From assembly GCF_014851805.1 (NCBI RefSeq), contig NZ_JACVAK010000002.1, positions 558,001-622,000 of the forward strand: 64,000 nt of DNA, read 5' to 3'. Below the pieces are notes generated by a model, which was not told the DNA's origin, did not search any database, and saw only the letters and a list, made by a program, of their open reading frames with translations. This document shows positions 1 through 18,506 of this stretch, piece by piece; position 1 is the first letter of the stretch; each line of letters opens with the position of its first letter. This DNA comes from Pseudoxanthomonas sp. PXM02. GTDB lineage: Bacteria; Pseudomonadota; Gammaproteobacteria; Xanthomonadales; Xanthomonadaceae. A program made the translations under genes and the position numbers.

Positions 1-80
1 AGTGCACGCGGCGCTTCGGACTGGCAGGCGGCCAGCGCGAGCAGCAGCACGGGCAGGGACAGGGAACGGATCGGGCGCAT
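1..80 (-). CDS. Lipoprotein, N-terminus only (cut by window edge)
   Basis: Read leftward from an ATG at 80, the first codons give MRPIRSLSLPVLLLALAAC followed by QSEAPRA. That is a short basic start, a leucine-rich hydrophobic stretch and a lipobox (LAAC, cysteine at residue 19), so the product is probably a lipid-anchored envelope protein. The rest lies outside the window, so its function cannot be judged. It is divergent from the SET-domain gene, with about 150 bp between the two starts that must hold both promoters. Confidence 0.6.
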   Translation of the reverse strand, partial: MRPIRSLSLPVLLLALAACQSEAPRA

Positions 81-229
81 GGCGAAGGCTCTGCAGGGGC
101 AATGCGGCTTCGAACGCGCCGTTCCACGCGAACCGGCCACCGCTCGACGGACGGCGATTCAGGTCATGGATTTGGGAATCCCGCGGGCATGGGCGAGAAT
201 CCCGCCTCCACCTTCCCCCTGGACGCCGC

Positions 230-703
230 ATGCCCCGCAAGATCGAAGCCCGCCAATCCGACATCCACGGCAACGGCGTGTTCGCCATCGCCCCGATCGA
301 GAAGGGCGAGCGCGTGGTGGAGTACAAGGGCAAGCGTCGCAGCCACGACGAAGTGGACGAAGACGACACCGGCGACGTGGAATCCGGCCACACCTTCCTG
401 TTCACGCTCAATGACGAATACGTCATCGACGCGAACCACAAGGGCAACAAGGCGCGCTGGATCAACCACAGCTGCGATCCGAACTGCGAAGCGGTCATCG
501 AGGAGCACGACGGCAAGAACCGCAAGAAGGACAAGGTGTTCATCGAAGCGATCCGCGCGATCAAGCCGGGCGAGGAACTGACCTACAACTACGGCATCGT
601 GCTGGCCGAGCCGCACACCGCCCGCCTCAAGAAGGTCTGGGCCTGCCGTTGCGGCAGCAAGAAGTGCACGGGTACGATGCTGCAACCCAAGAAGGGCCGC
701 TGA
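230..703 (+). CDS. SET-domain protein-lysine methyltransferase
   Basis: A 157-residue protein that is essentially one SET domain plus a post-SET tail. Such enzymes transfer methyl groups from S-adenosylmethionine to lysine side chains. Visible motifs are GNGVFA near residues 14-19, the NHSCDPNC pseudoknot motif (79-86), EELTYNYG (115-122), and a post-SET CRCGSKKC cluster (C139, C141, C146), which with C82 could bind zinc. The start at 230 is chosen because homology begins right there with a typical MPRKIEAR opening; the frame is open further upstream but that part is low-complexity arginine-rich. Bacterial SET proteins of this compact type are known, but their substrates are mostly unknown. 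A lysine-rich HU protein is encoded 7 kb away. Confidence 0.85.
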   Translation: MPRKIEARQSDIHGNGVFAIAPIEKGERVVEYKGKRRSHDEVDEDDTGDVESGHTFLFTLNDEYVIDANHKGNKARWINHSCDPNCEAVIEEHDGKNRKKDKVFIEAIRAIKPGEELTYNYGIVLAEPHTARLKKVWACRCGSKKCTGTMLQPKKGR

Positions 704-827
704 CCCCGGCACGCTCCTTCGCAGGCACGGATGCCGCAGAACACCCGAAGGTTGAAATGACCGAAGGCAGGTGTGGTCCGTCCTTCCCGTCGCTACCTTG
801 CGCGCACCGGACCACCACCCGACTTCC

Positions 828-3038
828 ATGAACCTCTTCCGTTCTGCCTGCGCGCTCGCGTTGGCCCTGCCCTGCAGCCTTGTCCACGCCGTCGAAATCG
901 ACGGCCGCATCGATCCCGCCGAATGGCAGGGCGCCCGGCACATCGCCGACTTCCGCAAGACCCAGCCGCTGACCGGTGAACCCGGCTCGCTGCCCACCGA
1001 AGCCTGGGTGCTGGCCACGCCCGACGGCCTGGCCATCGCCTTCCGCGCCACGCACCCGGCCAGCGTGCCGCGCACGCGGCAGAAGGTGCAGCGCGACTTC
1101 GACGCGCAGGTCGATCGCGTCAACGCCTTCATCGATTTCGATGGTGACGGCCGCACCGGCTACGCCTTCACCGTCAGCTCCACCGGCGGCATCGCCGACG
1201 AGATCATCACCAACGAAAACCAGTTCAGCGACGACTGGGACGGCCAGTGGCGGCATGCCGTCAGCGAGGACGAACAGGGTTGGTCGGTCGAACTGCTGAT
1301 CCCCTGGCATACCGCGCCGATGCGCGATGGCACCGACGGCCAGCGCACGCTCAAGATCTTCCTGGCGCGCGTCATCGGCGCCACCGGCGAGCGCATGGCG
1401 TGGCCGTCGGCCAGCTTCGAACGGCCGCGCTTCCTGTCCGACTTCGCGCCGATCACCGTGCCCCAGTACGACCAGTCGCTGCTGGCCATCACGCCCTACG
1501 TGTCCGGCCTGTACGACAACGTCGGCGGTGGCAGCGACTTCAACGCCGGCGCCGACCTGTTCTGGAAGCCGAACGGCCGCTTCCAGCTGACCGCGACGTT
1601 GAAGCCGGACTTCGGCCAGGTGGAAGCGGACGACCTGGTCGTCAATTTCAGCGCCACCGAGACCTTCATCAGCGACAAGCGCCCGTTCTTCACCGAGAAC
1701 CAGGGCATCTTCGAACTGACCACGCCGTCGGACGACAGCCAGCAGCTGTACACGCGGCGCGTGGGCAGCACCGGCGACATCACCGCGGCGGTGAAATTGA
1801 ACGGCAGCCTGGGCAAGGTCAACTACGGCCTGTTCACCGCCGACGAGGACGGCACGACCGGACGCAGCTACCACGCGCTGCGGCTGGTGCGCGATTTCGA
1901 GACGCAGAACCTGGGCGCGATGCTGACCCGTGTCGACGACCCTTGGCGCGACCGCGAGGCCACCGTGCTGGGCGTGGACCACAACTGGCGGCCGACCGCG
2001 CGCTGGAACATCCGCACCCGCCTGCTGGGCAGCCGCATCGACCAGGCCACCACCGGAACCGACGACGTCGGCGCCACGGTGTGGGCCGACTACGAGATGG
2101 ACCACGGCTGGCGCCAGCAGTGGATCGCCATGCACTTCGGCAACGACCTGCAACTCAACGACTTCGGCTACCTGTCGCGCAACAGCACCAACTACCTGCA
2201 CTGGGAACTGCGCAAGCGCTTCACCGGCCTGCCGGAGGCGTCGCGCTATTCGTCGAAGGACTGGCGCTGGCGCGTCAGCAGCAGCCACAACAACCATGGC
2301 GACAAGCTCAACGACCAGTTCCGCGTCAGCCGCGAGGGCCAGTTGCGCAACGGCAGTTACGAGTACGGCCAGATCAACGTCAACAGCGCCGGCCTCAACG
2401 ACACGCTGCTGCGTGGCAACGGCGTGGTGCGCATGCCCGCCAACTTCAACACTTATTTCGAGTACGAGCGGCCGCGCAAGGGCGACTGGGCGCATGAGAC
2501 CGAAATCGAAGCGTTCACCGGCGGACTGGCCGGCAACCGCAAGCTGGGTGCGGGCCTGGGCTACACCGCCACGTACTTCGTCAACGACGCCTTCAGCGTG
2601 TACGCCGGCGGCTACGCGATCTACACGCCGGACTGGCTGGTGTGGCAGGGCGAAGACCTGGTGGGCGGCTTCACGCGCCGCCAGTTCGACCTCAGCGCCG
2701 GCCTGGACTGGGTGATCGATCCGCGCCACGAACTGCGGGTGAAGATGCAGGCCATCGCACTGGATGCGCGCGTGAACGATGCGTGGCGCTTCGACCCGCG
2801 CGGTCATGCGGTGGCGGTGAACGACACCGTCGACGACTTCAGCGTGCGCAACCTGGGCTTCCAGATCCGCTACCGCTACGAGCTGGCGCCGCTGTCCTAT
2901 CTGTACGTGGTGTACGCGCGCGGTGGTTATGAGCAGCGCACCGGTACCGAAGGCGTCGACGACCTGCTGCAGGACAGCCTGCGTCTGCGCGATGACGAGC
3001 AGCTGGTCGTCAAGCTGAGCTACCGCTTCGAGATCTGA
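828..3038 (+). CDS. CBM9-like / DUF5916 outer-membrane-type protein
   Basis: A 736-residue secreted protein. The start at 828 gives a clear signal peptide (MNLFRSACALALALPCSLVHA, cleavage near 21). Residues about 22-200 resemble a family 9 carbohydrate-binding fold (VEIDGRIDPAEW opening). The rest matches DUF5916, with alternating aromatic and polar residues typical of a beta-barrel and a terminal aromatic strand ending in SYRFEI, as in outer-membrane proteins. Family members are common in Xanthomonadaceae and Bacteroidetes; their substrate is unknown. It stands alone: the SET gene ends 124 bp upstream and a repeat array follows. Family call is firm, carbohydrate binding is inferred. Confidence 0.8.
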   Translation: MNLFRSACALALALPCSLVHAVEIDGRIDPAEWQGARHIADFRKTQPLTGEPGSLPTEAWVLATPDGLAIAFRATHPASVPRTRQKVQRDFDAQVDRVNAFIDFDGDGRTGYAFTVSSTGGIADEIITNENQFSDDWDGQWRHAVSEDEQGWSVELLIPWHTAPMRDGTDGQRTLKIFLARVIGATGERMAWPSASFERPRFLSDFAPITVPQYDQSLLAITPYVSGLYDNVGGGSDFNAGADLFWKPNGRFQLTATLKPDFGQVEADDLVVNFSATETFISDKRPFFTENQGIFELTTPSDDSQQLYTRRVGSTGDITAAVKLNGSLGKVNYGLFTADEDGTTGRSYHALRLVRDFETQNLGAMLTRVDDPWRDREATVLGVDHNWRPTARWNIRTRLLGSRIDQATTGTDDVGATVWADYEMDHGWRQQWIAMHFGNDLQLNDFGYLSRNSTNYLHWELRKRFTGLPEASRYSSKDWRWRVSSSHNNHGDKLNDQFRVSREGQLRNGSYEYGQINVNSAGLNDTLLRGNGVVRMPANFNTYFEYERPRKGDWAHETEIEAFTGGLAGNRKLGAGLGYTATYFVNDAFSVYAGGYAIYTPDWLVWQGEDLVGGFTRRQFDLSAGLDWVIDPRHELRVKMQAIALDARVNDAWRFDPRGHAVAVNDTVDDFSVRNLGFQIRYRYELAPLSYLYVVYARGGYEQRTGTEGVDDLLQDSLRLRDDEQLVVKLSYRFEI

Positions 3039-3060
3039 CGGCGGCGCCGTCGCAACACGG

Positions 3061-3408
3061 CGCGCAAGCCTCCGAAACCCGACCGCCGGTATCGAGCACC
3101 TTGCGCGCGAGTCCTGGCGATTCGCACGCAAGCGTCACGGAGTCGCGCCCGACCCTCGGGCGCCTTGCGCGCAAGCCCTGGCGTCTTGCGGCCGAGTCTC
3201 CACGGCTTGCACGCAAGCAGAAAAGACGTGCGCGTCGAGCGGTGGGGGCTCGTGCGCAAGGCTGCGGAACTCGCGTGCGGGATGCGGCCGTCTTGCGCGC
3301 AAGACGTCAGAACTCGCGCGCAAGCCGCCCGGACCCAAATGTCGGTTTCCACGCCTTGCGCGCAAGCCTCCGAGGCTTGCGCGCGACATGGAGGCGGTTG
3401 CGCGCAAG
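3061..3408. repeat. Array of degenerate 12-bp CTTGCGCGCAAG palindromes
   Basis: Perfect CTTGCGCGCAAG occurs at 3164-3175, 3292-3303 and 3355-3366. Near copies lie at 3100-3111 (CTTGCGCGCGAG), 3121-3132 (TTCGCACGCAAG), 3185-3196 (CTTGCGGCCGAG), 3206-3217 (CTTGCACGCAAG), 3249-3260 (CTCGTGCGCAAG), 3270-3281 (CTCGCGTGCGGG), 3313-3324 (CTCGCGCGCAAG), 3376-3387 (CTTGCGCGCGAC) and 3397-3408 (GTTGCGCGCAAG), with a half site at 3061-3068. Spacing between starts is about 20 to 43 bp. The spacers are unrelated, so this is not a tandem repeat of a longer unit. The array sits between convergent genes. Function unknown; protein binding sites or a decaying repeat family are both possible. Confidence 0.85.
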
Positions 3409-3464
3409 GCGCAGGATCCCGGCGCTACCGTGCTGGCGCGGGATCTTCCTCTGTAATGTGAGAC

Positions 3465-3484
3465 GAACCGCCGCCGGGCGGTTC
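3465..3484 (-). terminator. Hairpin after the DUF1439 pair
   Basis: GAACCGCC (3465-3472) pairs with GGCGGTTC (3477-3484) around a GCCG loop. It lies 9 bp past the stop of the minus-strand DUF1439 gene. No T-run follows on the minus strand, so it is a weak intrinsic terminator at best. Confidence 0.35.
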
Positions 3485-3492
3485 CCGCGCAA

Positions 3493-4065
3493 TCAGGGCG
3501 TAGCGCCGGTCGCGAGTTGCAGTTCCACGTGGCCATCGCGGATGCGCAGCGACTCCGCCGACAGCGTGCCGGGCACCTGCGCCAGGTCTTCGTCGGTCAG
3601 GCGGTACAGCGGCCGGGTCTGCGCGTACTCGCGGATCAGGTCCTGCAGCACTTCGCGCGAACCGCCCGGCAGGCCGCGACCGCCGGCGCCGGTGCCGAGA
3701 TGTTCCAGCTGCGGGTCCACCAGGTGCAGGCCACGCGTGCCGGGGTCGTAGCGCAGGCCGCTGCTGACCACCACGTTGCCGTTCTCCAGCCGCTCGCCGC
3801 TGACCAGCGCGATGTCGTAGTTCATCCGCAACTGCAGGCGCTCGCCCGGCGTGGGAATGCGCACGTCGGGATCGCTCAGCGTGAGCGAGGCAAAGCCCTG
3901 CAGCAGGTCCTGTTCCATCGGGAAGCCGGCGCGTGCGGCGGACTGCAACTGCGCCGCGGTGAAGCGCAGCGTGTTGTCGGTCGCCGCCTGCGTGAGCAGG
4001 GGCAGGGTGGCCAGGGCGACCAGCGCCACACGGGCGAAGAAGGTCTTCATCATCGTCGTCCTCAC
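3493..4065 (-). CDS. Secreted DUF1439-family protein
   Basis: A 190-residue exported protein. The start at 4065 overlaps the stop of the upstream paralogue by four bases (ATGA), so the two are probably translationally coupled; internal methionines at residues 5 and 6 are alternatives. The N-terminus (MKTFFARVALVALATLPLLTQA) is a cleavable signal peptide. The body follows DUF1439 proteins: an amphipathic N-terminal part (RFTAAQLQSAA), then a beta-rich region with YDPGTRGLHLVDP that closely parallels YDPATQGLHLDNP in the neighbour. Members are periplasmic proteins of unknown role, possibly lipid-binding. Confidence 0.75.
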   Translation of the reverse strand: MRTTMMKTFFARVALVALATLPLLTQAATDNTLRFTAAQLQSAARAGFPMEQDLLQGFASLTLSDPDVRIPTPGERLQLRMNYDIALVSGERLENGNVVVSSGLRYDPGTRGLHLVDPQLEHLGTGAGGRGLPGGSREVLQDLIREYAQTRPLYRLTDEDLAQVPGTLSAESLRIRDGHVELQLATGATP

Positions 4066-4631
4066 TGCAGGTGGATGACCACGCGGCCGTTGTCGATCTG
4101 CGTGCTGCCGATGCGCTTGCTGGCGGGCAGCCGCTTCAGCACGTCGCTGTCGATGCGGTAGACCGGTTCGCTGCGCGCGTATTCGGCCAGCACGGTGTTC
4201 ACCATCTGGCGCGTGCCGCCGGACATCAGCGAACCGGCGCCGGGCACGTCGACCGACAGGATTTCGGGGTTGTCCAGGTGCAGGCCCTGGGTGGCGGGGT
4301 CGTAGCGCAGCCGGCTGGCGACCGCGAAGTGGCCGCGGCTGACATCGCGCGCGCCGAGGGCGCTGACGCCGATGTCGAAATCCAGCCGCAGGCGGTCGTC
4401 GCCCGACGGGATGCTCAGGCGCGGATTGGTCAGCGTGGCCGATACCAGGCCGCCCAGCTTGTCGAATTCGCGCGGAAAACTCTGGTTGAGATAGCGCTGC
4501 AGTTGCGGCTGGGTGAAGTTGATCTCGTTGCCGAACAGGCCGGTGACGGCGTTGAGCGTGCTGCAGCCGGCCACGACCAGGGTGGCGCCGGCGGCGAGCG
4601 TGGCAAGCAGGAAACGGCGGCGTGTGCGCAT
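4062..4631 (-). CDS. DUF1439-family lipoprotein
   Basis: A 189-residue lipoprotein: MRTRRRFLLATLAAGATLVVAGC gives a basic start, a hydrophobic core and a lipobox with cysteine at residue 23. The start at 4631 is preferred over one nine codons upstream because the signal begins there and GGAG precedes it at a good distance. The mature part (INFTQPQLQRYLNQSFP, later YDPATQGLHLDNP) matches DUF1439, the family of the E. coli lipoprotein YceB. It is the first gene of a two-gene unit with its soluble paralogue. Confidence 0.8.
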   Translation of the reverse strand: MRTRRRFLLATLAAGATLVVAGCSTLNAVTGLFGNEINFTQPQLQRYLNQSFPREFDKLGGLVSATLTNPRLSIPSGDDRLRLDFDIGVSALGARDVSRGHFAVASRLRYDPATQGLHLDNPEILSVDVPGAGSLMSGGTRQMVNTVLAEYARSEPVYRIDSDVLKRLPASKRIGSTQIDNGRVVIHLQ

Positions 4632-4719
4632 GGACGGCTCCGGAAGGAATGGCCGCACCTTAGCCGGCGCCGCCTGTCCGGCAACTAACCGTGCGCCCGG
4701 TGTGCGCGCGGCCGGTTTA

Positions 4720-5355
4720 CTAGGTGCGCGACTGTGTCGCCAGCCGCAGGCCCAGCGCGATGAAGACGCTGCCGGTGATCCTGCGCATCCAGCGTGCCCC
4801 GCGCGCGCTGCCGGCGAAGCGGCGCCCCATGCGGCCCACCAACCAGGACAGCAGGAGGCTGTGGCACAGGCCGATGGCGGACAGGATCAGCCCCAGCAGC
4901 AGGAACTGCAGCGGCACCGCGCCGCGCGCCGGATCGACGAACTGCGGCAGGAACGCCAGGAAGAACAGCGCCACCTTCGGGTTGAGGACGCCGGTGAGCA
5001 CGGAGCGCAGGAATACCTGCCGCGCGGGCACGGCCACCACGGGAGCGGCGGAAGGGTCCGCCGCGGGATCGCGCTCGCGCCACGCCTGGATGCCGAGCCA
5101 CACCAGATACGCGGCGCCGGCGTACTTGACGATTTCGAACGCCAGCGCGGATGTCGCCAATACCGCAGACAGGCCCAGGCCCGCGGCCACCGCGTGGATC
5201 AGCGTGGCGGTTTCCAGTCCCAGTGCCGCCTGCGCGCCGCGGCGCACGCCGCCGGAAGCGCTCTGCGCGACGATCCACGCCGTGCCGGGGCCCGGAATCA
5301 GCACCAGCACGGCCGCGGCGGCGGTGTAGGCCAGCAGGGTAGTGGTGTCGAACAT
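4720..5355 (-). CDS. LysE/RhtB-family amino-acid exporter
   Basis: A 211-residue inner-membrane protein with five or six hydrophobic segments. Near the N-terminus it has LIPGPGTAW (residues 19-27), the PGP signature of LysE/RhtB translocators, which export amino acids or homoserine lactone-type compounds using the proton gradient. Length is normal for the family. The substrate cannot be read from sequence. It stands as a single gene between the DUF1439 pair and a DUF3861 gene, all on the same strand but with gaps that allow its own promoter. Confidence 0.85.
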   Translation of the reverse strand: MFDTTTLLAYTAAAAVLVLIPGPGTAWIVAQSASGGVRRGAQAALGLETATLIHAVAAGLGLSAVLATSALAFEIVKYAGAAYLVWLGIQAWRERDPAADPSAAPVVAVPARQVFLRSVLTGVLNPKVALFFLAFLPQFVDPARGAVPLQFLLLGLILSAIGLCHSLLLSWLVGRMGRRFAGSARGARWMRRITGSVFIALGLRLATQSRT

Positions 5356-5386
5356 GGCCTGCTGCTCCGGGGAGGGCGCGAAGGAA

Positions 5387-5698
5387 TCAGCCGGCGTCGC
5401 GGCTGCGCTGTTTCAACGTCTGGATGAATTCCATCATGGGCGGACGCAGTCCGGCAAACAGGTCGTCGCTGTCCTTGCGATGGTCCAGCATCAGGCCGCT
5501 GAGCAGCTTGGTGCCGACGACCAGCGCGGCGCGCTCGTCGCCGCTGAAGCCGCGCTGGCGCTGGACGTTCTCGAGGATGCGCATCCAGTCGTCGTGGCAG
5601 CCGTGTTCGAATTCGATGGTGCAACGGCCGTTGCACTGCAGACCGTCGTCCTCGATGGGCGTGACGGTGATGCGGTAACGGTGGGGTGTGGTGGACAT
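5387..5698 (-). CDS. DUF3861-family small protein
   Basis: A 103-residue soluble protein starting MSTTPHRYRITVTP at 5698. The start is preferred to one 20 codons upstream because that extension is low-complexity. The conserved block includes CNGRCTIEFEHGCHDDW (residues 22-38), rich in Cys and His, followed by a helix-forming region. It matches DUF3861, a small family of unknown function in gammaproteobacteria. The Cys/His content suggests metal binding, which is inference only. Its stop is 31 bp upstream of the exporter start on the same strand, so the two may share a transcript. Confidence 0.65.
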   Translation of the reverse strand: MSTTPHRYRITVTPIEDDGLQCNGRCTIEFEHGCHDDWMRILENVQRQRGFSGDERAALVVGTKLLSGLMLDHRKDSDDLFAGLRPPMMEFIQTLKQRSRDAG

Positions 5699-5805
5699 GA
5701 TGGTGTGCGCGGGGGCGCGGTGGGGGAGTAAGGCCAAGATAGGCCCCCACCGGCGCACGAACGAGGGGCCGGGCCGCGATGGACTGTTCCGCGCGCCGCG
5801 GTGGT

Positions 5806-6375
5806 TCAGTCAGCGGCCGTCGGGCGGCCGTGGGCCCTGAACAGCGGCAGCGGATCGTACGCGCCGTCGGCGCCGTAGATGCCGTAATGCAGGTGCGGCG
5901 GCGTGCCCTGCGCGTTGCCGGTGGTGCCGACGAAGCCGAGCGTGTCGCCCGGTTGCACGACCTGTCCGGTCGACAACGCCGGCGCCCAGTCGTCCAGGTG
6001 CGCGTAGTAATGGCGCTCGCGACCGGGGCCGATCACCCAGACCTGTTTGCCGCCGAGACCGCCGTCACGCACCGAGGCCACCACGCCGCGCGTCGCGCTG
6101 AGCACGGGCGTGCCGCGCGTGGCGAAGATGTCCACGCCCTGGTGCGTACGGTCGCGGCCGCGCGGTGCACCGAACGTATCCGCGATCTGCCGCACGCGCA
6201 CGTCCTGCACGGGCACGGGCAAGCTCGTCGGCGGCGGCGCGCGGGAGATGTCCCACATCATCCGTGCCGACGCCATGAACGGCTGGCCCCACGCCCAGGC
6301 CAGCAGTGCGCCGAGCGCCGCCAGCCACAGCAGCGTCCAGGCCAGCCGGCGCAAACGACGTGCGGCCGGACGCAT
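5806..6375 (-). CDS. M23-family zinc metallopeptidase, membrane anchored
   Basis: A 189-residue protein with one N-terminal membrane helix (about 12-30) and a periplasmic LytM/M23 domain. Zinc ligands are all present: H78 and D82 in HQGVDIF, and H161 and H163 in HLHYGIY. Intact ligands suggest a real peptidoglycan endopeptidase rather than a catalytically dead activator of the EnvC type. It begins 3 bp after the stop of the DUF533 gene, so the two are surely one transcript. The gene ends without a clear terminator. Confidence 0.9.
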   Translation of the reverse strand: MRPAARRLRRLAWTLLWLAALGALLAWAWGQPFMASARMMWDISRAPPPTSLPVPVQDVRVRQIADTFGAPRGRDRTHQGVDIFATRGTPVLSATRGVVASVRDGGLGGKQVWVIGPGRERHYYAHLDDWAPALSTGQVVQPGDTLGFVGTTGNAQGTPPHLHYGIYGADGAYDPLPLFRAHGRPTAAD

Positions 6376-6378
6376 CGG

Positions 6379-7026
6379 TCAGGGCAGCGGCGGCGGTTGC
6401 GGCTGCGACTGCGACAGCTGGCGCTCGAGCTGCGCCTTCAGCGAAGGATCCAGCTTCAGCTGTTTCGCCAGCTCGTCTAGGTAGGCGCGTTCCATGAAGT
6501 TCTGTTCGTCGGCCACCATCAGGCTGGCCAGGTACATCTCGGACGCGATCTCCGGCGTGCTGCCGGCGCGCGCGACCTCGGCCGGGTCCAGCGGCTTTTC
6601 CAGTTCGGCGTGCAGCCACTGCTGCAGTTCGCCGTCGGTGCCGACGCGCGAGAACTCGCCTTCGATCACTTCGCGCTCGCGCGCATCGATGTGGCCGTCC
6701 GCTTTTGCGGCCGCCACCAGCGCCTTGAGGATGGCCTGGCTGTGCAACTCGGCCTGCGGCGGCGGCAGACGATCGACCGTCTGCGGCGTGGCGCCGGCGG
6801 CGAAGCCCCCCTGTTGCTGCTTGTAGTCACCGTAGGCGCGGTAGGCCATCACGCCGATCGCGGCCAGGCCGCCGTAGGTGGCCAGGTTGCGCGTGGTCTT
6901 GTTCTTGCCGAGCAGCAGGCCCAGCGCACCGCCGGAAATCGCGCCCTTGCCGAAATCGGCATTGAGCACGCTGCCGGTGCCACTGGAGGATTTCAGCAGG
7001 TGGTCGAGGAAACCCTGGATCTTCAT
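6379..7026 (-). CDS. DUF533 / TerB-like membrane protein (YebE-like)
   Basis: A 215-residue protein. The start at 7026 (MKIQGFLDHLLKSS) is where similarity to YebE-type proteins begins. A glycine-rich segment (about 28-40) and a hydrophobic stretch (about 47-60) form the membrane part. A C-terminal helical TerB-like domain (about 90-205) contains the acidic KADGHIDARE motif often seen in this fold. In E. coli yebE is envelope-stress responsive; whether that holds here is not visible. Its coupling to an M23 peptidase suggests a cell-envelope job. Confidence 0.75.
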   Translation of the reverse strand: MKIQGFLDHLLKSSSGTGSVLNADFGKGAISGGALGLLLGKNKTTRNLATYGGLAAIGVMAYRAYGDYKQQQGGFAAGATPQTVDRLPPPQAELHSQAILKALVAAAKADGHIDAREREVIEGEFSRVGTDGELQQWLHAELEKPLDPAEVARAGSTPEIASEMYLASLMVADEQNFMERAYLDELAKQLKLDPSLKAQLERQLSQSQPQPPPLP

Positions 7027-7108
7027 GCGGTCACTACCTTGCGTGGTGGGGATCACAGACTACCTGCGGGCGGTGACCGTCTTTCGCAACCGTGACTTCT
7101 GGCGGCGC

Positions 7109-7139
7109 AAAAAAATCGGGACGGCATGGCCGTCCCGAT
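7109..7139 (-). terminator. Strong intrinsic terminator of the HU gene
   Basis: ATCGGGACGGC (7115-7125) and GCCGTCCCGAT (7129-7139) form a perfect 11-bp stem with a 3-nt loop. On the minus strand it is followed by a run of seven T (7109-7115). It lies 28 bp past the HU stop. Confidence 0.92.
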
Positions 7140-7167
7140 CTCGTGTCGCGTCAGGGTGTCGCAGCGA

Positions 7168-7566
7168 TCAGGCTGCGGCGTCCTTCAGCTTCTTCAGCGG
7201 GCGCACCTTGACCTTCACCGAGGCGGGCTTGGCGGCGAACCACTGCTCTTCCTTGGTGAACGGGTTGATGCCCTTGCGCTTCGGCTTGGCCGGCACGTTG
7301 ACGGCGCTGATCTTCAGCAGGCCCGGCAGGGTGAAGGAGCCAGCGCCCTTCTTGTTGACGGAGGCGTGCACGGCGCTTTCCAGCGAGGCCAGCACGGCGC
7401 GGACGTCCTTCGCGGCAACGGCGGTGGCTTCGGCGATGTGGGCGACGAGGCCCGACTTGCTCAGCGCTTCCTTGATCGGCTTCGGCGCGGCCGGCTTGGC
7501 GGCGGCCTTCGGTGCAGCTTTCTTGGCGGCCTTTTTCGGCGCGGCCTTCTTGGTGCTCTTTGCCAT
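7168..7566 (-). CDS. HU-family DNA-binding protein with lysine/alanine-rich tail
   Basis: A 132-residue histone-like protein. Residues 1-31 are a flexible KAAPKKAAKK-type tail resembling eukaryotic H1 and the AlgP/Hc tails. Residues 32-129 hold the HU/IHF fold (helices KEALSKSGLVAHIAEAT, then GSFTLPGLLKISAVNVPAKPKRKGINPFTKE, where KGINPFT matches the RxGRNPQT arm tip of HU). It should coat or bend DNA in the nucleoid. Start at 7566 follows a purine-rich site; an upstream in-frame ATG is rejected because it lies within the promoter. It has its own promoter and terminator, so it is monocistronic. Confidence 0.88.
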   Translation of the reverse strand: MAKSTKKAAPKKAAKKAAPKAAAKPAAPKPIKEALSKSGLVAHIAEATAVAAKDVRAVLASLESAVHASVNKKGAGSFTLPGLLKISAVNVPAKPKRKGINPFTKEEQWFAAKPASVKVKVRPLKKLKDAAA

Positions 7567-7624
7567 GTGTCCTGTCTCTGATGTCGAGTGGTTGGGTAAT
7601 CGGGCCGATCGCATCGGCAAGCGA

Positions 7625-7653
7625 AATGTAGGGCAAAGCATTCGCTGCGCCAA
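7625..7653 (-). promoter_or_regulatory. Sigma70-type promoter of the HU gene
   Basis: On the minus strand TTGGCG (7653-7648) is followed after exactly 17 bp by TACATT (7630-7625), about 60 bp upstream of the HU start codon. Spacing is ideal and both boxes match consensus at four or more positions. Confidence 0.6.
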
Positions 7654-7676
7654 GAGCAGAAAGCACCTGAAACGGC

Positions 7677-7701
7677 TTTTTTTTCGGTTTTTTTCTGTTT
7701 T
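7677..7701 (-). promoter_or_regulatory. Phased A-tracts upstream of the HU promoter
   Basis: Three T-runs on the plus strand (T8 at 7677-7684, T7 at 7688-7694, T4 at 7698-7701), with centres about 9-11 bp apart, stand out in this GC-rich genome. Read on the HU strand they are phased A-tracts at roughly -60 to -84. They should curve the DNA and could aid transcription or bind a nucleoid protein, possibly HU itself. Confidence 0.55.
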
Positions 7702-7816
7702 CGTGTCGCCGCGCGTCGGAAATTGCCCGCAGGCATGACGAAATCACCTCGCGCACATGCACCGGAAGCGGCGTCCGGCGCGCATCGCGCGACCGGATGC
7801 CGCACCCCCGTGACGC

Positions 7817-9862
7817 TCAATCGTCGTCGTGTTTCGGCTTGTAGTTGTCCACCAGTTTCTGCTGCACGGCGGCGGGCACGGGCTCGTAGTGGCTGAAATC
7901 CAGGCTGTAGCGGCCCTGGCCGGCGGTCATGGACTTAAGCTCGGCGGCATACCCCTCCAGTTCGGCGAGCGGTACCTGCGCCTTCACCACGATCTCGCCG
8001 CGCGCCGCATCGGTGCCGTTGATGCGCGCCCGCTTGCCGGCGAGGTTGCCGGTGATGTCGCCGACCTGCGCCTCGGGCACGGCCACTTCCAGATCGACGA
8101 CCGGCTCCAGTACCTGGGGTCGCGCCTTGGCGATGGCGTCGAGGAAGGCCTTCTTGCCCGCCGCCACGAAGGCCACTTCCTTGCTGTCCACCGCGTGGTG
8201 CTTGCCGTCGTGGACGACCACCCGGATGTCCTGCAGCGGATAGCCGGCCACCGCACCGCTGCCCAGCACCTGGCGCACGCCTTTCTCCACCGCCGGCAGG
8301 AATTGGCCGGGAATGGTGCCGCCTTTCACTTCATCGACGAATTCGAAACCGCCGCCGCGCGGCAGCGGCTCGATGCGCAGGGCCACTTCGCCGAACTGGC
8401 CGGCGCCGCCGGTCTGTTTCTTGTGCCGATGATGTCCCTCGGCCTTCGCGCCGATCGTCTCGCGGTAGGCGATGCGCGGCGGCCGCGTCTTCACTTCCAC
8501 GGCATGACGATCTTTCAGCCGGTCCAACATCACGCGCAGGTGCAGGTCGGAGAGGCCGCGGATGACGGTCTCGTTCAACTCCGGCTGGTGCTCGACGACG
8601 AAGGCCGGATCCTCTTCGGCCAGCTTCTGCAGCGCGATCGACAGCTTCTGTTCCTGGCCCTTGCTGGCGGCTTCGATCGCCAGGCCGAACATCGGCTTGG
8701 GGAACGCCACCGGCGCCAGATGGATGTGGTCCTCGTCGTGGCTGTCGTGCAGCACCGCATCGAAATGCAGGTCGTCGACCTTGGCCACGGCCGCGATGTC
8801 GCCCGGAATCGCCTGGTCGACTTCCACGTGGTCCTTGCCCTTGAGCTTGAACAGGTGGCCGACCTTGAACGGCTTCTTGCCGTCGTCGACGAACAGCTGC
8901 GTGTCCTTCTTCAGCGTGCCCTGGTAGACGCGGAAGATCCCCAGCTTGCCGACGAAGGGATCGTTGACGATCTTGAAGACGTCGGCGATGACGTGCGCGC
9001 GCGGATCCGGTACCGCTTCGATCGGTTGCGGACCGCTGCCATTGAGCTTCACGAACGGCGGCGGATTGGCTTCGGCCGGGTTGGGGAACAGGCGCTCCGC
9101 CACGTCCAGCAGTTCCTTCACGCCCGTCCCGGTGCGCGCGGACGCGAAGCACACCGGCACCAGATGGCCCTCGCGCAGGCATTGCTCGAAGGCATCGTGC
9201 AGTTCCTCGCCGGACAGGCCGCCTTCGCCCAGGTCCAGGTAGTGCTCCATCACCGTCTCGTTGATCTCGACGACCTGGTCGATGATCTTCTGGTGCCAGT
9301 CGGCCACCTCGCCGAGGTCGGATGCGCCCGTCGATTGCCAGAAGCAGTCCACGACCGCCTTGCCGCCGTCGGCCGGCAGGTTGAGCGGCAGCACTTCCGG
9401 CCCGAACTCCTCGCGCAGCGCGGCCAGCACGCCGGCGCAGTCGGCGCCTTCGTGGTCGATCTTGTTGATGACGATGGCGCGGCACAGGTTGCGTTCGCGG
9501 GCGCGCTCCATCAGCCGGCGCGTGCCGTGCGCGACACCGGCATCGGCGTCGACGACGATCAGCGCGGTATCCACGGCGGAGAACGCCGACAGCGCCGGTC
9601 CGCGGAATTCCGGATAGCCGGGCGTATCGATCAGGTTGACGTGCATGCCGCCGTGGTCGGTGCTGGCGATGGCGGTGTCGATGGAATGGCCGCGGGTCTT
9701 TTCGATCGGATCGTGGTCCGACACGGTGGTGCCGCGTTCGATGGTGCCTGCCACCTGGAGGGCGCCGCCGGCATGCAGCAGGGCTTCGAACAAGGTTGTT
9801 TTGCCGGCGCCGGGGTGGCCCGCCAGGGCCACGTTGCGGATCTGTTGCGTGCTGTACGACAT
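7817..9862 (-). CDS. EF-G-like translation GTPase paralogue
   Basis: A 681-residue GTPase with the EF-G domain order. The G1 loop is GHPGAGKT (15-22), G3 is DTPGY (about 79-83) and G4 is NKID. Domain II, III, IV (IAYRETIG onward) and a domain V follow. The switch I area reads EKTRGHSI where true EF-G has ERGITI, and the C-terminus ends in an acidic DDD. It therefore looks like the second, divergent EF-G class present beside canonical fusA in many bacteria, rather than the elongation factor itself, which normally sits with rpsL-rpsG-tuf. The start at 9862 has a GGAGG 9 bp upstream. Its exact cellular role is uncertain. Confidence 0.85.
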   Translation of the reverse strand: MSYSTQQIRNVALAGHPGAGKTTLFEALLHAGGALQVAGTIERGTTVSDHDPIEKTRGHSIDTAIASTDHGGMHVNLIDTPGYPEFRGPALSAFSAVDTALIVVDADAGVAHGTRRLMERARERNLCRAIVINKIDHEGADCAGVLAALREEFGPEVLPLNLPADGGKAVVDCFWQSTGASDLGEVADWHQKIIDQVVEINETVMEHYLDLGEGGLSGEELHDAFEQCLREGHLVPVCFASARTGTGVKELLDVAERLFPNPAEANPPPFVKLNGSGPQPIEAVPDPRAHVIADVFKIVNDPFVGKLGIFRVYQGTLKKDTQLFVDDGKKPFKVGHLFKLKGKDHVEVDQAIPGDIAAVAKVDDLHFDAVLHDSHDEDHIHLAPVAFPKPMFGLAIEAASKGQEQKLSIALQKLAEEDPAFVVEHQPELNETVIRGLSDLHLRVMLDRLKDRHAVEVKTRPPRIAYRETIGAKAEGHHRHKKQTGGAGQFGEVALRIEPLPRGGGFEFVDEVKGGTIPGQFLPAVEKGVRQVLGSGAVAGYPLQDIRVVVHDGKHHAVDSKEVAFVAAGKKAFLDAIAKARPQVLEPVVDLEVAVPEAQVGDITGNLAGKRARINGTDAARGEIVVKAQVPLAELEGYAAELKSMTAGQGRYSLDFSHYEPVPAAVQQKLVDNYKPKHDDD

Positions 9863-10068
9863 GAGGCCGTTCCTCCCGAAGGTTGGGGTCGAAGGGCCGT
9901 CATGGCTGTCCGGGCAGAGCGCATCCCGTGAGCGTGGCGCTCGGCGGGCGGTCATGGCGGACGGCCAGCATCGGCATGTGCCCGGGCGGGGTCAAGCCGC
10001 ACTGCGGTACATGCCGTGAACATCCAGAGGTGTACCCTGCGTTCCCCTGACCCTGATGGAGCACGACC

Positions 10069-10503
10069 ATGGCTTTGAAGCGTTACGCGGATGCGGTGTG
10101 GACCGGTGACCTGCAGTCCGGCAAGGGCACGCTGAGCACGCCGCAGAGCGGCCTGTTCGAAGGACAGAACTACTCCTTCAAGACCCGCTTCGGCGACGAG
10201 AAAGGTACCAACCCGGAAGAACTGCTGGCGGCGGCGCATGCCGGCTGCTTCACCATGGCGCTGTCGGCGGTGCTGGGCAAGGCCGGCTTCACCGCGGACA
10301 AGCTGCAGACGCGCGCCGAAGCGACGATGGAGCCGGGCATGGATCCAGGCCCGACCGTCACCGGCATCAAGCTGACCGTGTCGGGCAGCGTGCCGGGCAT
10401 CAGCGCGGCGCAGTTCGAAGAGATCGCCCAGCAGGCCAAGGCCGGTTGCGTGATTTCGCGCGCGCTGTCGGTGCCGGTGTCGCTGGAGGCGACGCTGCTT
10501 TGA
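10069..10503 (+). CDS. osmC: OsmC-family peroxiredoxin
   Basis: A 144-residue OsmC/Ohr-fold protein. The two redox cysteines are present: C60 in AAHAGCF and C127 in KAGCVISR. It starts MALKRYADAVWTGDLQSGKG, typical of the OsmC branch (with its GKGTLSTPQSG stretch) rather than Ohr. These enzymes reduce organic hydroperoxides, drawing electrons from a lipoylated or dithiol donor. The stop overlaps a TTG start of the next gene, so the two are coupled. Confidence 0.88.
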   Translation: MALKRYADAVWTGDLQSGKGTLSTPQSGLFEGQNYSFKTRFGDEKGTNPEELLAAAHAGCFTMALSAVLGKAGFTADKLQTRAEATMEPGMDPGPTVTGIKLTVSGSVPGISAAQFEEIAQQAKAGCVISRALSVPVSLEATLL

Positions 10504-11195
10504 CAGCGGTACGGGCCGCGCTGCTGGTGCATGGCGCCGGTGGCGGCGGCTGGGAGTGGAACGTGTGGCGCGGCGTGCTCGAAGCGAACGGGATCGCCGT
10601 CGTCGCGCCCGATCTGCAACCGGTGGCCGCGGGACTCGCGGCCACCGGTTTCGATGATTACCTGCAGCAGGCGCGCGATGCGCTGGAGTCGCTGCCGCGC
10701 CCACGCGTCCTCGTCGGCGCCAGCCTGGGTGGCCTGCTCGCGCTGGGCATCGCCGATGCGGCCGATGCGCTGGTCCTGGTGAATCCGCTGCCGCCTGCCC
10801 CGTGGCATGCATCGCTTCCGTCGCGGGTGTGGCCGGATGTCGTGCCGTGGCGTCGCGATGCGCGGCTTGATGGGACGCGTCGTGCGCTGCCGGGCGCCGA
10901 TGAAGCGACGGCGCTGTTCGCGTTCCGCCACTGGCGCAACGAGTCCGGGAAGGTGTTGCGCACGGCGTGCGATGGCCTGCCACTGGCGCGGCCCGCCTGT
11001 CCGACGCTGGTCATCGCATCCCTCGAAGACGAGGATGTGCCGCCAGCGATCACGCAGGCGATGGCCACCGCGTGGAAGCTGGACATCCTGCAAACGCTTT
11101 CACGCTCGCACGTCGGTCCGTTGCTGGGCCGCGAAGCGGCAGGCATCGCCGCGCAAACTGTCGAATGGGTAAACCGCGCTGTTCATGTCGGCTGA
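10500..11195 (+). CDS. Alpha/beta hydrolase, TTG start
   Basis: A 231-residue alpha/beta hydrolase. The likely start is TTG at 10500, overlapping the osmC stop (TTGA) with GGAGG 10 bp upstream; no ATG fits. The oxyanion-hole HGAGGGG (11-17) and nucleophile elbow GASLGG (S75) are clear. A late SRSHVGPL supplies a histidine near residue 205. It resembles small AB_hydrolase_6 esterases. The substrate is unknown. Coupling to an organic-peroxide enzyme suggests clean-up of oxidised lipids or esters, but that is speculation. Confidence 0.7.
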   Translation: MTAVRAALLVHGAGGGGWEWNVWRGVLEANGIAVVAPDLQPVAAGLAATGFDDYLQQARDALESLPRPRVLVGASLGGLLALGIADAADALVLVNPLPPAPWHASLPSRVWPDVVPWRRDARLDGTRRALPGADEATALFAFRHWRNESGKVLRTACDGLPLARPACPTLVIASLEDEDVPPAITQAMATAWKLDILQTLSRSHVGPLLGREAAGIAAQTVEWVNRAVHVG

Positions 11196-11265
11196 GTTCA
11201 GCCCGATTTCACCCGTTGGAGCCGAGCATGCGCTCACGCCAATCCGGCGTGGGGGAGTACCCGAC

Positions 11266-11979
11266 ATGAAGCGTCTTTCCGCCACCGTGCTGGCCCTCGG
11301 CCTGCTCGCCACCGGTGTGGCCTCCGCGCAGTCCACGCGGCACTACGGCACCTCCGACCGGTACGGCGATGAACCCTATTACGACTATGCGCGTGTCGTG
11401 CGGGTGGATCCCATCATCGAAGGCGGCTATCGCGACACGCGTGGCACGACTTCCCAGCAGTGCTACTACCGCGACGCGGACGATGTATATGCGCGTGACG
11501 TTTACCGCGACGATGCGTATTCCAACCGCGGCTACGGCGATGTGTACGACAACGGGGACTACCGCGACGTGTACGGACAAGACGGCTATGGCCAGCGCCG
11601 CACCTCCACCGGCGGTACCGAAGCCGGCCGTACCGTGGCTACCGTGATCGGCGGCATCGCCGGTGCGGTGCTGGGCAGCAAGGTCGGCGATGGCAGTGGC
11701 CGTTACGTCGGCACGGCGGTCGGTTCGATGGTCGGCGGTATGGCCGGTCGCTCCATCTACGACAACAACCAGCGCAACCGCCAGGTGCAACGCGGCCAGG
11801 TGCGCGTCTGCGATCCGGTGCCGGTGAACGATGGCCGCTATGGCGACGACTACTACGGCGATGGCCGGGTCTCCGGTTACGACGTGACCTACGAGTACGG
11901 CGGCCGCACCTACCGCACGCGCACCGGTTACCACCCGGGCGAGCGCATGCGCGTACGCGTGGACGTACGTCCCGAATGA
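11266..11979 (+). CDS. Secreted tyrosine-rich protein with glycine-zipper domain
   Basis: A 237-residue exported protein. The start at 11266 follows GGGGGAG and begins a signal peptide (MKRLSATVLALGLLATGVASA). Residues about 27-112 are Tyr/Asp/Gly-rich low-complexity sequence (for example GYGDVYDNGDYRDVYGQDGYG). Residues 123-162 form a glycine-zipper pair (GGIAGAVLGSKVGDG, then GTAVGSMVGGMAG) of the Rick_17kDa/2TM type, and a small basic domain closes the protein. Glycine-zipper proteins insert in or attach to the outer membrane; role here unknown. A strong terminator follows. Confidence 0.8.
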   Translation: MKRLSATVLALGLLATGVASAQSTRHYGTSDRYGDEPYYDYARVVRVDPIIEGGYRDTRGTTSQQCYYRDADDVYARDVYRDDAYSNRGYGDVYDNGDYRDVYGQDGYGQRRTSTGGTEAGRTVATVIGGIAGAVLGSKVGDGSGRYVGTAVGSMVGGMAGRSIYDNNQRNRQVQRGQVRVCDPVPVNDGRYGDDYYGDGRVSGYDVTYEYGGRTYRTRTGYHPGERMRVRVDVRPE

Positions 11980-12028
11980 CTCCTGCGTTACGCGGGAGCC
12001 CGGGGCGGTAGGCAGGGGATTGCCGCGA

Positions 12029-12052
12029 AAGGGGCCGCAAGGCCCCTTTTTT
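12029..12052 (+). terminator. Intrinsic terminator of the glycine-zipper gene
   Basis: AAGGGGCC (12029-12036) pairs with GGCCCCTT (12041-12048) around a GCAA tetraloop and runs into six T. It separates the gene from the amidohydrolase downstream. Confidence 0.92.
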
Positions 12053-12117
12053 GCGCCCGTTGCCGTCGCGCGCGCCACCGCGCATAGTCCCGCGCTGGAT
12101 CAGGACAGGAGTGCGGC

Positions 12118-13782
12118 ATGCGGCGTCTGGCATGGGGAATGGGCGGGTTATTGGCCTGTGCGGGTATTGCGCAGGCACAGGTACAGGTGGTGACGGCCGC
12201 ACGCGTGCATACGTCCGATCCCTCGCGACCGGTTGCCGAAGCGATGGCGTGGGACGCCCAGGGGCGCATCCTGGCCGTGGGCGACACGCGCGAGCTGCTT
12301 GCGCGCTATCCCGATGCGACACGCATCGACGCTGCCGGCAAGACGGTGATCCCCGGTCTGATCGACGCACATGGCCATGTCATGGGCCTGGGTTACGCCC
12401 TGATGCGCGCCGACCTGGTGGATGCGCAGGACAAGAACGAGGTGATCGCGCGATTGCGCGCGTTCGAAAAACAGCTCCCGCCGAATGCCTGGTTGTTGGG
12501 CGGCGGCTGGGACCAGAACGATTGGCCGGAAAAGGCCTTCCCTGGCGCCGCGGATCTCGATGCCGCGTTCCCTGACCGTCCGGTCTGGCTTGAGCGCGTG
12601 GACGGCCATGCCGGCTGGGCCAACAGTGCGGCGCTGCGTGCGGTGGCGGCGAAGGCCACGCGTTCGCTCGACGGTGACTGGCAGCCCGAGGGTGGGCGCA
12701 TCGAACGCGTCGGCGGCAAGCCGAGCGGGGTGTTCATCGATGCCGCGATGGCGCTGGTCAATGCCGTGGTGCCGGCGCCCGATGCCGCATATCGGCGCCA
12801 GGCATTGGAGAAAGCCACGCAGGCCGCCGTGCGCAACGGCCTGACCGGTGTGCACGACATGGGCGTGTCGCGCGAGGATCTGGCGCTGATGAAGCAGTTC
12901 GCCGACGAGGGTCGCCTGCCGCTGCGCATCGATGCCTACGCCGACGGCGATGGCGCCGCGCTGGCGGACCTCTGCGAACACGGGACGTATCGCCACGCGG
13001 GTGGCCGCCTGCAGATGACAGGCGTGAAGCTGTACGCCGATGGCGCCTTGGGCAGTCGCGGCGCGGCGTTGCTGGAGGACTACAGCGACGATCCCGGCAA
13101 CCGCGGCCTGCTGGTGACCGAGCCGGCGGCGCTGGAATCGGCGATGCGCAAGGCGCGTGGCTGCGGCGTGCAGGTGGCGACGCATGCCATTGGCGATCGT
13201 GGCAACCGCCTGGTGCTGGACGCTTACCAGCGCGTGCTGGGCGATGCGGCGAAAACCGACCATCGCTGGCGTATCGAGCATGCGCAGGTGGTGGCACCGG
13301 AGGAGTTTCCGCGCTTCGCTGCGCTCGGCGTGATCGCGTCGATGCAGCCGACGCATGCGACGTCCGACATGCCGTGGGCGCAGGATCGGCTGGGGCCCGT
13401 ACGCATCACCGGCGCCTACGCCTGGCAGCGTCTGCAGGGCAGTGGCGTGAAGCTGGCGCTGGGTTCGGACTTCCCCGTGGAGTCGGTCGATCCGCGGCGC
13501 GGCCTGCATGCAGCGGTGACGCGGCAGGATGGCAAGGATCATCCCGACGGCGGCTGGATGCCGGACCAGCGTCTGAGTGCTGCGGAGGCGCTGCGCGGAT
13601 TCACCGCGGACGCCGCATGGGCGGGTCACGACGAAGCGAAAGTTGGTCGGCTAGCACCGGGCTTGCGCGCGGACTTCGTGATCCTCGACGAGGATCCGCT
13701 GGCGATCCCGGGCGAACAGCTCGACGACTTGCACGTCCGTTCCACGTGGGTGGATGGCAAGGCGGTCTACGAAGTCGAGTAG
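12118..13782 (+). CDS. Secreted metal-dependent amidohydrolase (YtcJ-like)
   Basis: A 554-residue amidohydrolase of the TIM-barrel superfamily with an N-terminal signal peptide (MRRLAWGMGGLLACAGIAQA). Metal-site motifs are DAHGH (83-87), KLYADGALGSRGA, ATHAIGDRGN, RIEHAQV and the catalytic aspartate in GSDFPVE. An ADFVILDEDP strand closes the beta-sandwich. This is the YtcJ/Amidohydro_3 group, whose members hydrolyse amides or formamides; substrates are seldom known. It begins 139 bp after the preceding gene with its own promoter space. Export is unusual for primary metabolism and suggests periplasmic scavenging. Confidence 0.85.
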   Translation: MRRLAWGMGGLLACAGIAQAQVQVVTAARVHTSDPSRPVAEAMAWDAQGRILAVGDTRELLARYPDATRIDAAGKTVIPGLIDAHGHVMGLGYALMRADLVDAQDKNEVIARLRAFEKQLPPNAWLLGGGWDQNDWPEKAFPGAADLDAAFPDRPVWLERVDGHAGWANSAALRAVAAKATRSLDGDWQPEGGRIERVGGKPSGVFIDAAMALVNAVVPAPDAAYRRQALEKATQAAVRNGLTGVHDMGVSREDLALMKQFADEGRLPLRIDAYADGDGAALADLCEHGTYRHAGGRLQMTGVKLYADGALGSRGAALLEDYSDDPGNRGLLVTEPAALESAMRKARGCGVQVATHAIGDRGNRLVLDAYQRVLGDAAKTDHRWRIEHAQVVAPEEFPRFAALGVIASMQPTHATSDMPWAQDRLGPVRITGAYAWQRLQGSGVKLALGSDFPVESVDPRRGLHAAVTRQDGKDHPDGGWMPDQRLSAAEALRGFTADAAWAGHDEAKVGRLAPGLRADFVILDEDPLAIPGEQLDDLHVRSTWVDGKAVYEVE

Positions 13783-13795
13783 CGGCTGCTTCCTC

Positions 13796-13918
13796 TAGGA
13801 GCGACGTCAGTCGCGACCGCGTGCCTCGATGGCCCTTGAACCATGAAGTGTGCAGTGACTGCACACATCAGGCCGTAAGTGAGCGGAAATCTTCCGGTCG
13901 CGACTTACGTCGCTCCTA
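13796..13918. repeat. Inverted REP pair, copy 1
   Basis: TAGGAGCGACGTCAGTCGCG... (13796-13819) and its near-perfect reverse complement (13895-13918) flank 75 bp. Inside lies a second palindrome, GTGTGCAGTGACTGCACAC (13848-13866, nine-base arms around one base). The same 24-bp arm recurs at 36741 and 40363. This is a REP doublet (REPIN-like) of a family frequent in Xanthomonadaceae. It lies between convergent genes. Confidence 0.85.
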
Positions 13919-13933
13919 CAGTGGGAGCGGATA

Positions 13934-14812: not shown

Positions 14813-14843
14813 GGGGGATGTTGTCGCGTGGGGGCCGCGCAGC

Positions 14844-15722: not shown

Positions 15723-15756
15723 GCGGTACGGTCCGGTCGCGCCGGGAGGCTTCGGC

Positions 15757-15790
15757 TAGAATCGACGGTTCACGCCCGAACGGTTCGGGC
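15757..15790 (+). promoter_or_regulatory. lysAC leader: -10 box and short hairpin
   Basis: TAGAAT (15757-15762) fits a -10 hexamer five of six; no good -35 is seen 16-18 bp upstream. Just downstream GCCCGAA (15774-15780) pairs with TTCGGGC (15784-15790). The hairpin would lie in the 5' leader of lysAC, whose ATG at 15810 lacks a clear Shine-Dalgarno. Confidence 0.35.
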
Positions 15791-15809
15791 ATCCCTCCCC
15801 ATTCTATCC

Positions 15810-18437: not shown

Positions 18438-18465
18438 CGTGCCCGCTGTTCTTCTTCATTGTTTT

Positions 18466-18485
18466 GCCTGCCATGAAGGGCAGGC
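18466..18485 (+). terminator. Stem-loop between lysAC and murL
   Basis: GCCTGCC (18466-18472) pairs with GGCAGGC (18479-18485) around six bases. Only a broken T-run follows, so read-through into murL is likely; it may act as an attenuating or mRNA-processing hairpin. Confidence 0.3.
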
Positions 18486-18506
18486 GGCTTCTTCCATGGA
18501 TCACGC

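Follow-up and report, generated by a model that had tools for sequence, protein, structure and literature searches.

Degenerate 21/22-bp palindrome arrays in Pseudoxanthomonas and a protein family of about 160 residues whose genes often adjoin them

Centromere arrays are built of tandem, regularly spaced sites for ParR, omega-type or ParB proteins and lie next to the gene of a small protein, and the iterons of plasmid origins have a 21-22-bp repeat spacing beside a protein gene. Closest in logic to the arrays described here is the REPIN-RAYT system, an IS200-like transposase with its cognate extragenic palindromes, as set out in two reports (PMC2817692; PMC3116915). We analyzed an array of short palindromes between two convergent genes of Pseudoxanthomonas sp. 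PXM02, within a stretch of 64,000 nucleotides (hereafter, the window). The features of the locus, in window coordinates, are:

771..3038, + strand: left flanking gene of 755 aa; many Lysobacterales have relatives of it, and it marks the orthologous site
3057..3417, no strand: class A array of 17 scored 21/22-bp units; every unit joins a 12-bp palindrome (consensus CTTGCGCGCAAG) to a 9-10-bp spacer
3164..3175, no strand: perfect CTTGCGCGCAAG copy
3292..3303, no strand: perfect CTTGCGCGCAAG copy
3355..3366, no strand: perfect CTTGCGCGCAAG copy
3418..3492, no strand: lattice probably extended in degenerate form, as far as the stop of the next gene, from extrapolated phase (unit start 3397 + 63 = 3460); unscored by the segmentation
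3455..3463, + strand: AATGTGAGA, a TCTCAC/GTGAGA element in lattice phase, near the stop of the next gene
3493..4065, - strand: right flanking gene, 190 aa, convergent

An earlier note on this DNA had described three perfect and at least nine near-perfect copies of the palindrome, irregularly spaced and separated by unrelated spacers. The copy numbers were borne out: positions 3057-3408 hold three perfect copies (starting at 3164, 3292 and 3355) and nine with 1-3 mismatches. Allowing up to two mismatches, 9 of the 20 matches in the window fall inside the cluster; shuffles of the whole window gave a mean of 9.49 matches, or 0.05 expected per 348 bp, so the cluster is about 180 times denser than the shuffle expectation (Poisson P about 5e-18). 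The impression of irregular spacing was not. A chain model fitted to nine arrays, in which the unit came out as a 12-bp palindrome with a 9-10-bp spacer, places the starts at multiples of a 21/22-bp step, equal to two helical turns, and resolves at least 17 consecutive degenerate units with a mean step of 21.25. The spacers proved to be related as well, with weak conservation around NCTCCGRGG. The array thus consists of head-to-tail copies of one period, as a simple tandem repeat does, and no second region of the window has a comparable 21/22-bp period (next best 4.7 vs 10.6). A coding origin was rejected, since 21- and 22-bp steps are mixed and no reading frame is kept. Across 272 units, with three loci left out of the test, the central pair of the palindrome covaries (z 4.6) and pair 3/8 does so weakly (z 2.9); the other four pairs show no covariation (z -0.2 to 1.6). 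Mutations had been said to mirror the palindrome, which therefore holds for the central pair, weakly for pair 3/8, and not for the remaining four. With four of the six pairs behaving in this way the half-sites are mostly independent, a pattern more in keeping with a two-fold DNA site than with an RNA stem.

A count over the source genome (4.34 Mb in 12 contigs), suggested earlier as a check, also came out in favour of clustering: there are 11 exact copies of the consensus, compared with 1 of the reversed control, and all 11 sit within five arrays, namely that of the window and those at C4:581.8 kb, C4:1454 kb, C4:1709 kb and C5:1046 kb. Once a single mismatch is allowed, matches outnumber the control only modestly (70 vs 46), so isolated near-copies elsewhere are mostly background. 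For wider searches we used a sequence-only covariance model of class A (R1), built from 30 stretches of nine arrays in five genomes; E-values within those five genomes are therefore circular. Weaker R1 matches in the source genome (e.g., C6:276240 and C4:1611158) were not tallied as arrays.

Clustering of the proteins encoded in array flanks revealed a family of about 160 aa beside six arrays in four genera, each gene reading away from its array. We refer to it as MSQN, our own label, taken from the first residues of the protein. In the source genome one MSQN gene (C4:581192-581671) lies about 130 bp from the C4:581.8-kb array. The family had no significant match in Pfam, NCBIfam, PHROGs, PADLOC or PDB sequences, profile searches recognised no DNA-binding domain in it, and 11 of 12 members checked are acidic (pI 4.9-5.6). 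The N-terminal signature of ribbon-helix-helix proteins prompted a reading of the MSQN N-terminus in these terms; it was rejected, as Pfam and PDB sequence-profile searches gave no such match, and a strand-like stretch at residues 5-12 is the sole hint of it. A search of the source genome for PF01402 found none. Residues 5, 7 and 9 were also tried as a specificity code and discarded (partial correlation 0.23, no better than 0.21 for residues 6, 8 and 10). Within the genus, MSQN is present in 20 of 38 genomes; for the family the count is 94 of 297, for the order 28 of 299 (three families), and a sample of the phylum gave 2 of 398, both in the same family. There are often several paralogues per genome, with 12 matches in G135. 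A phage or plasmid origin was rejected: neither the window array nor one MSQN protein searched had a match among 50,697 phage records and 72,556 plasmid records, and none of 121 candidate stretches in viral contigs was confirmed. Among open-licence PMC papers, none turned up whose title or abstract describes this array or MSQN.

We then compared 52 MSQN loci, which are best matches returned as loci and not all copies. A 21/22-bp-period array lies within 450 bp on one side in 45 of the 52, the periodic stretch being upstream in 36 of 50 and downstream in 9 of 52. The adjacency statistic was corrected for codon periodicity, and a locus passed if it exceeded the 99th percentile of 1651 null windows; 42 of the 52 loci exceed even the maximum of these, and none of 101 distal control windows pass. 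Seven MSQN loci had defined the family through their arrays, and six of them pass; among those independent of the family definition, 39 of 45 do. The seven failing loci comprise two that lie at contig ends and have little sequence upstream (L189 and L225), a gene fragment (L200), and L193, L214, L221 and L223; L214 (the same locus as L176) has its class A array about 430 bp away. The upstream arrays stop short of the MSQN start codon by a median of 114 bp (23-261 bp over 37 loci), and a hairpin followed by a T-run, identified by eye, precedes five of seven downstream arrays (L197, L199, L228, L230 and L232; not L196 and L226). Since the former end before the start codon and the latter mostly follow a likely terminator, the arrays probably lie outside the MSQN mRNA.

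The arrays fall into several motif classes: class A (CTTGCGCGCAAG), class B (CCATCGAT-GC plus TTCCGAG), class C (a 22-bp unit around GGTATGTCGCG-GATACC), and others beyond these three, and the fitted motifs differ between MSQN paralogues. Class C arrays step by about 22.0 bp, so no single exact helical phase applies to all arrays. The source genome has at least 11 arrays: five of class A, four of class B (L261-L264), one of class C (L279), and one beside its second MSQN gene. It encodes two MSQN genes only, one adjoining a class A array and the other a further array type with GGTCAACGTTGACC-type palindromes; nine arrays, that of the window included, are orphans with no MSQN gene alongside. The idea that orphans are relics of lost MSQN genes was rejected, as the only significant match among 23 sources searched was the MSQN-linked L157, those at L006 and L143 being at chance level (E 0.5 and 4.8). 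Motif similarity follows MSQN identity (Mantel r 0.44, p 0.001, 44 loci; r 0.34 among pairs under 75% protein identity), a correlation that joint inheritance of neighbours can also produce. G027 has kept class A arrays though its two MSQN genes adjoin other array classes.

A further element, TCTCAC/CTCACA, recurs in Pseudoxanthomonas arrays of several classes (L181-L210), its copies mostly spaced by multiples of about 21 bp. With its reverse complement included, 46 gene-side arrays contain 60 copies in MSQN sense and 20 in antisense, compared with 4 and 5 in the opposite flanks of these genes; of 18 arrays from outside the genus, 1 has it. In 12 loci a reversed TCTCAC/GTGAGA copy stands 82-109 bp before the MSQN start codon.

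Among 38 genomes of the genus, R1 found class A arrays (E<=1e-5) in nine, of which four (G004, G007, G027 and G037) were outside model building. All nine are among the 20 MSQN-bearing genomes, and none is among the 18 MSQN-free ones. For class B, searched with the array DNA of L188, 13 of 20 genomes with MSQN and 0 of 18 without it match at E<=1e-8. Loosening the cut to E<=1e-3 gives 18 of 20 and 7 of 18, the additional matches being weak, and those listed in MSQN-free genomes (G005, G010 and G024) correspond to a border repeat. This repeat, a 25-bp REP-like GGGTGGGCC..GGCCCACCC element, edges the L188 array (query 353-379) and stands alone in MSQN-free genomes. Taking class A (E<=1e-5) or class B (E<=1e-8) together, 17 of 20 genomes with MSQN and 0 of 18 without have arrays (Fisher 4e-8), the class split and the class B cut having been chosen after seeing the data. 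Class C DNA matched only G013, G028 and, weakly, the source genome. MSQN-free genomes could carry other array classes, outside our queries. At the family level, with stricter filters (E<=1e-6), class A arrays occur in 22 of 297 genomes and 7 of 54 genera, and MSQN is present in 21 of these 22 compared with 73 of the 275 others (1e-10). Two of the 21 (G049 and G308) have MSQN by weak or partial matches near E 8e-18, and the exception (G250) has a single weak array match.

The lattice persists while the sequence of its units diverges. Steps in 20 of 25 Pseudoxanthomonas loci, five being under the score cut and three of those counted being orthologues of the window array, were 21 bp (211), 22 bp (70), 23 bp (11) and 20 bp (4); 20- and 22-bp steps were penalised equally, and the latter are far commoner (P 1e-16). 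Genus arrays reach chain scores of 52-141, while 56 loci elsewhere in the order and its neighbours reach 14.5 at best. In the family, all 20 fetched loci carry arrays, of 10-44 units and mean steps of 21.0-21.3 (21 bp, 349; 22 bp, 31; 23 bp, 20; 20 bp, 15; 19 bp, 1), the excess of 22 over 20 being weak outside the genus (31 v 15, P 0.026). Array phase is held over 15-20 units despite units far from consensus. The longest array found (L161:1646-2573, in G295) has 44 units with A-tract spacers (gcaaaaagc), and in it a 14-bp palindrome, CTTGCGATCGCAAG, shifts the step. G204, G296 and G305, of about 6 Mb each, have two class A arrays some 67-72 kb apart, one of them adjoining MSQN.

Array positions are partly conserved between species. 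Absence of the array from close relatives with the same flanking genes had been named as a refuting outcome, and the result is divided: three other species (G017, G019 and G027) have the window array at this gene junction, and it is missing there in all five of the loci L010-L014, although the genome of L014 (apparently G018) has MSQN. Of the nine orphan arrays of the source genome, eight have a counterpart at the orthologous site in at least one relative by flanking-DNA alignment; for L007 none was found among the loci compared. One orthologous intergenic site carries a class A array in G019 (L143) and G017 (L146) and a class B array in the source genome (L262) and G018 (L269), with class scores of A 78 v 8, A 44 v 6, B 148 v 12 and B 178 v 9, respectively. 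Flanks of L143 and L262 are 87-88% identical over 1.5-1.8 kb on both sides. Here the position is kept while the motif differs, though two independent insertions at one spot may also account for it.

Between the source genome and G019, the window array differs at 0.32 of aligned core positions and 0.60 of spacer positions; in the left gene, third codon positions differ at 0.26. Some of the identity in the core reflects no more than the shared consensus. In the close pair G019-G027 core and spacer are nearly alike (0.10 v 0.13). Two large gaps in the alignment, of 64 and 149 bp, equal 3 and 7 units, so arrays change by whole units, both gained and lost. Within the array L153:2838-3158 of G004, two units (43 bp) have expanded in tandem. 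The proposal of a locally expanding repeat was therefore right in part. Location between convergent genes, seen at the window, is no general rule: with heuristic gene calls for 40 arrays, 8 lie in convergent, 5 in divergent, 17 in '--', 7 in '++' and 3 in open settings.

On balance, we somewhat favour the reading that the window array belongs, as an orphan, to a two-part chromosomal system of Lysobacterales, comprising MSQN genes with adjoining arrays and scattered gene-less arrays, all of them DNA platforms on which MSQN dimers would assemble. The earlier note had suggested a multi-site platform for a dimeric protein; this remains the best fit, as half-sites are largely independent, the lattice has a two-turn step and the arrays seemingly lie outside the partner transcript, and MSQN is now a candidate for the protein, with binding itself a supposition. 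A dimer of MSQN would occupy each palindrome, and adjacent dimers, lying on one DNA face at a distance of two turns, could touch and form a cooperative nucleoprotein filament. The gene-side array may autoregulate MSQN, and orphan arrays may serve as anchor or bridging points on the nucleoid, marking dispersed sites. The lattice, the adjacency, the co-occurrence, the motif following protein lineage and the conserved positions are all observed and speak for platforms, as does the better conservation of core than spacer between the source genome and G019. Points on the other side are the 22.0-bp steps of class C, the weak excess of 22- over 20-bp steps outside the genus, the near-equal core and spacer differences of G019-G027 and the weak class B matches in MSQN-free genomes. 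Against platforms also stand the acidity of MSQN, its lack of a recognised DNA-binding domain, and arrays with no matching MSQN gene (classes B and C in the source genome, class A in G027), which could reflect relaxed specificity, lost paralogues or a different binder.

These last difficulties count for a rival reading, that the arrays are bound by another general chromosomal protein (a nucleoid protein or regulator) and MSQN is merely a gene often controlled by an array, and the sharing of the TCTCAC element by several array classes in the genus points the same way. We regard this as unlikely, though worth keeping in view: class A, and class B at E<=1e-8, are missing from all 18 MSQN-free genomes of the genus, the motif follows the MSQN lineage, and promoter control is unlikely for the 9 of 52 MSQN genes with a downstream array.

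An improbable alternative is a selfish system in the manner of REPIN-RAYT, in which arrays spread or persist as non-autonomous DNA and MSQN aids their copying or maintenance, with little benefit to the cell. A gene adjoining its repeat, dispersed copies, a repeat that tracks the protein lineage and presence or absence among relatives would all fit, and the logic is that of REP/RAYT (PMC2817692). MSQN, however, has no transposase-like match, array positions are kept between species, and the class B query has an identity of only 66-79% over at least 100 bp elsewhere in the genus, compared with 79-100% beside MSQN.

Repeats beside a gene of about 160 aa recall type III toxin-antitoxin loci, and both strands of the window array are predicted to fold strongly (z -5.8 and -6.1), so the arrays might act as RNA, transcribed into hairpin repeats with an antitoxin-, guide- or sponge-like role. 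Folding is alike on both strands, however, as in any palindrome array, and the z-scores do not discriminate between readings. Covariation is seen at the central pair and not at the outer pairs of the stem; T-G and C-A departures, whose meaning depends on the strand transcribed, occur in similar numbers (43 v 47, 46 v 33 and 26 v 23 at three pairs). Arrays on the gene side stop ahead of the leader or come after a likely terminator, and Rfam gave no match at gathering score in window positions 1-20000. We consider a role as RNA very unlikely. Least probable of all is a neutral minisatellite arisen by chance tandem duplication and then decaying: units are indeed gained and lost, as in the 43-bp expansion of L153, but phase is kept over 15-20 units far from consensus, 22-bp steps outnumber 20-bp steps in the genus (weakly outside it), and the arrays are linked to one protein family, whereas a minisatellite should have neither signs of selection on its phase nor a linked partner.

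Returning to the platform reading, arrays that sit beside the genes of a protein family missing from every library searched point to a hitherto unknown way of marking or organising bacterial chromosomes. A visible repeat is here tied to a protein family absent from those libraries, often with several paralogues beside arrays of different motif. If MSQN does bind the arrays, it would represent a new kind of chromosome-organising protein with sequence specificity, this specificity could be read from dozens of natural protein-motif pairs, and bacteria would offer a case of repeated-site turnover at fixed positions. More tentatively, and with the doubt on the larger side, the arrays may be a bacterial counterpart of satellite-type chromosome sites, with fixed positions, a motif that turns over and a diversifying array-linked protein, and may nucleate filaments that organise or mark the chromosome.

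Compared with known systems, the arrays agree with the earlier judgement that they are neither CRISPR nor REP. CRISPR arrays have near-identical repeats of 23-50 nt and unique long spacers; here a degenerate 12-bp core alternates with weakly conserved spacers of 9-10 bp. Like type III toxin-antitoxin loci, the gene-side arrays stand beside a gene of about 160 aa, but they are apparently outside the transcript and symmetric as DNA, and MSQN has no toxin family match. Iteron arrays share the 21-22-bp spacing beside a protein gene; the units described here are palindromic, degenerate and chromosomal, and MSQN matches no known family. ParR, omega and ParB centromeres resemble them in having regular tandem sites beside a small-protein gene, in the manner of a cooperative platform. 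In contrast to these centromeres, MSQN arrays are many and dispersed per genome, the window array and the one MSQN protein searched had no match in plasmid records, and the protein has no ribbon-helix-helix or ParB-type match in Pfam or PDB. With REPIN-RAYT they have in common a gene flanked by its own palindrome class, dispersed copies, repeat-protein coevolution and hybrid arrays (PMC2817692; PMC3116915). Coevolution of repeat class and protein is seen in the Mantel correlation given above, subject to joint inheritance. The differences lie in the recurrent neighbour, which has no transposase match in Pfam, NCBIfam or PHROGs; in the lack of a GTAG-type head; in copy number, tens to hundreds of exact, dispersed copies of one 20-40-bp palindrome in REPIN-RAYT against 11 known array loci in the source genome, with 11 exact 12-mers all in five arrays; and in architecture, where single or paired palindromes are replaced by 21-22-bp lattices of 10-44 units.
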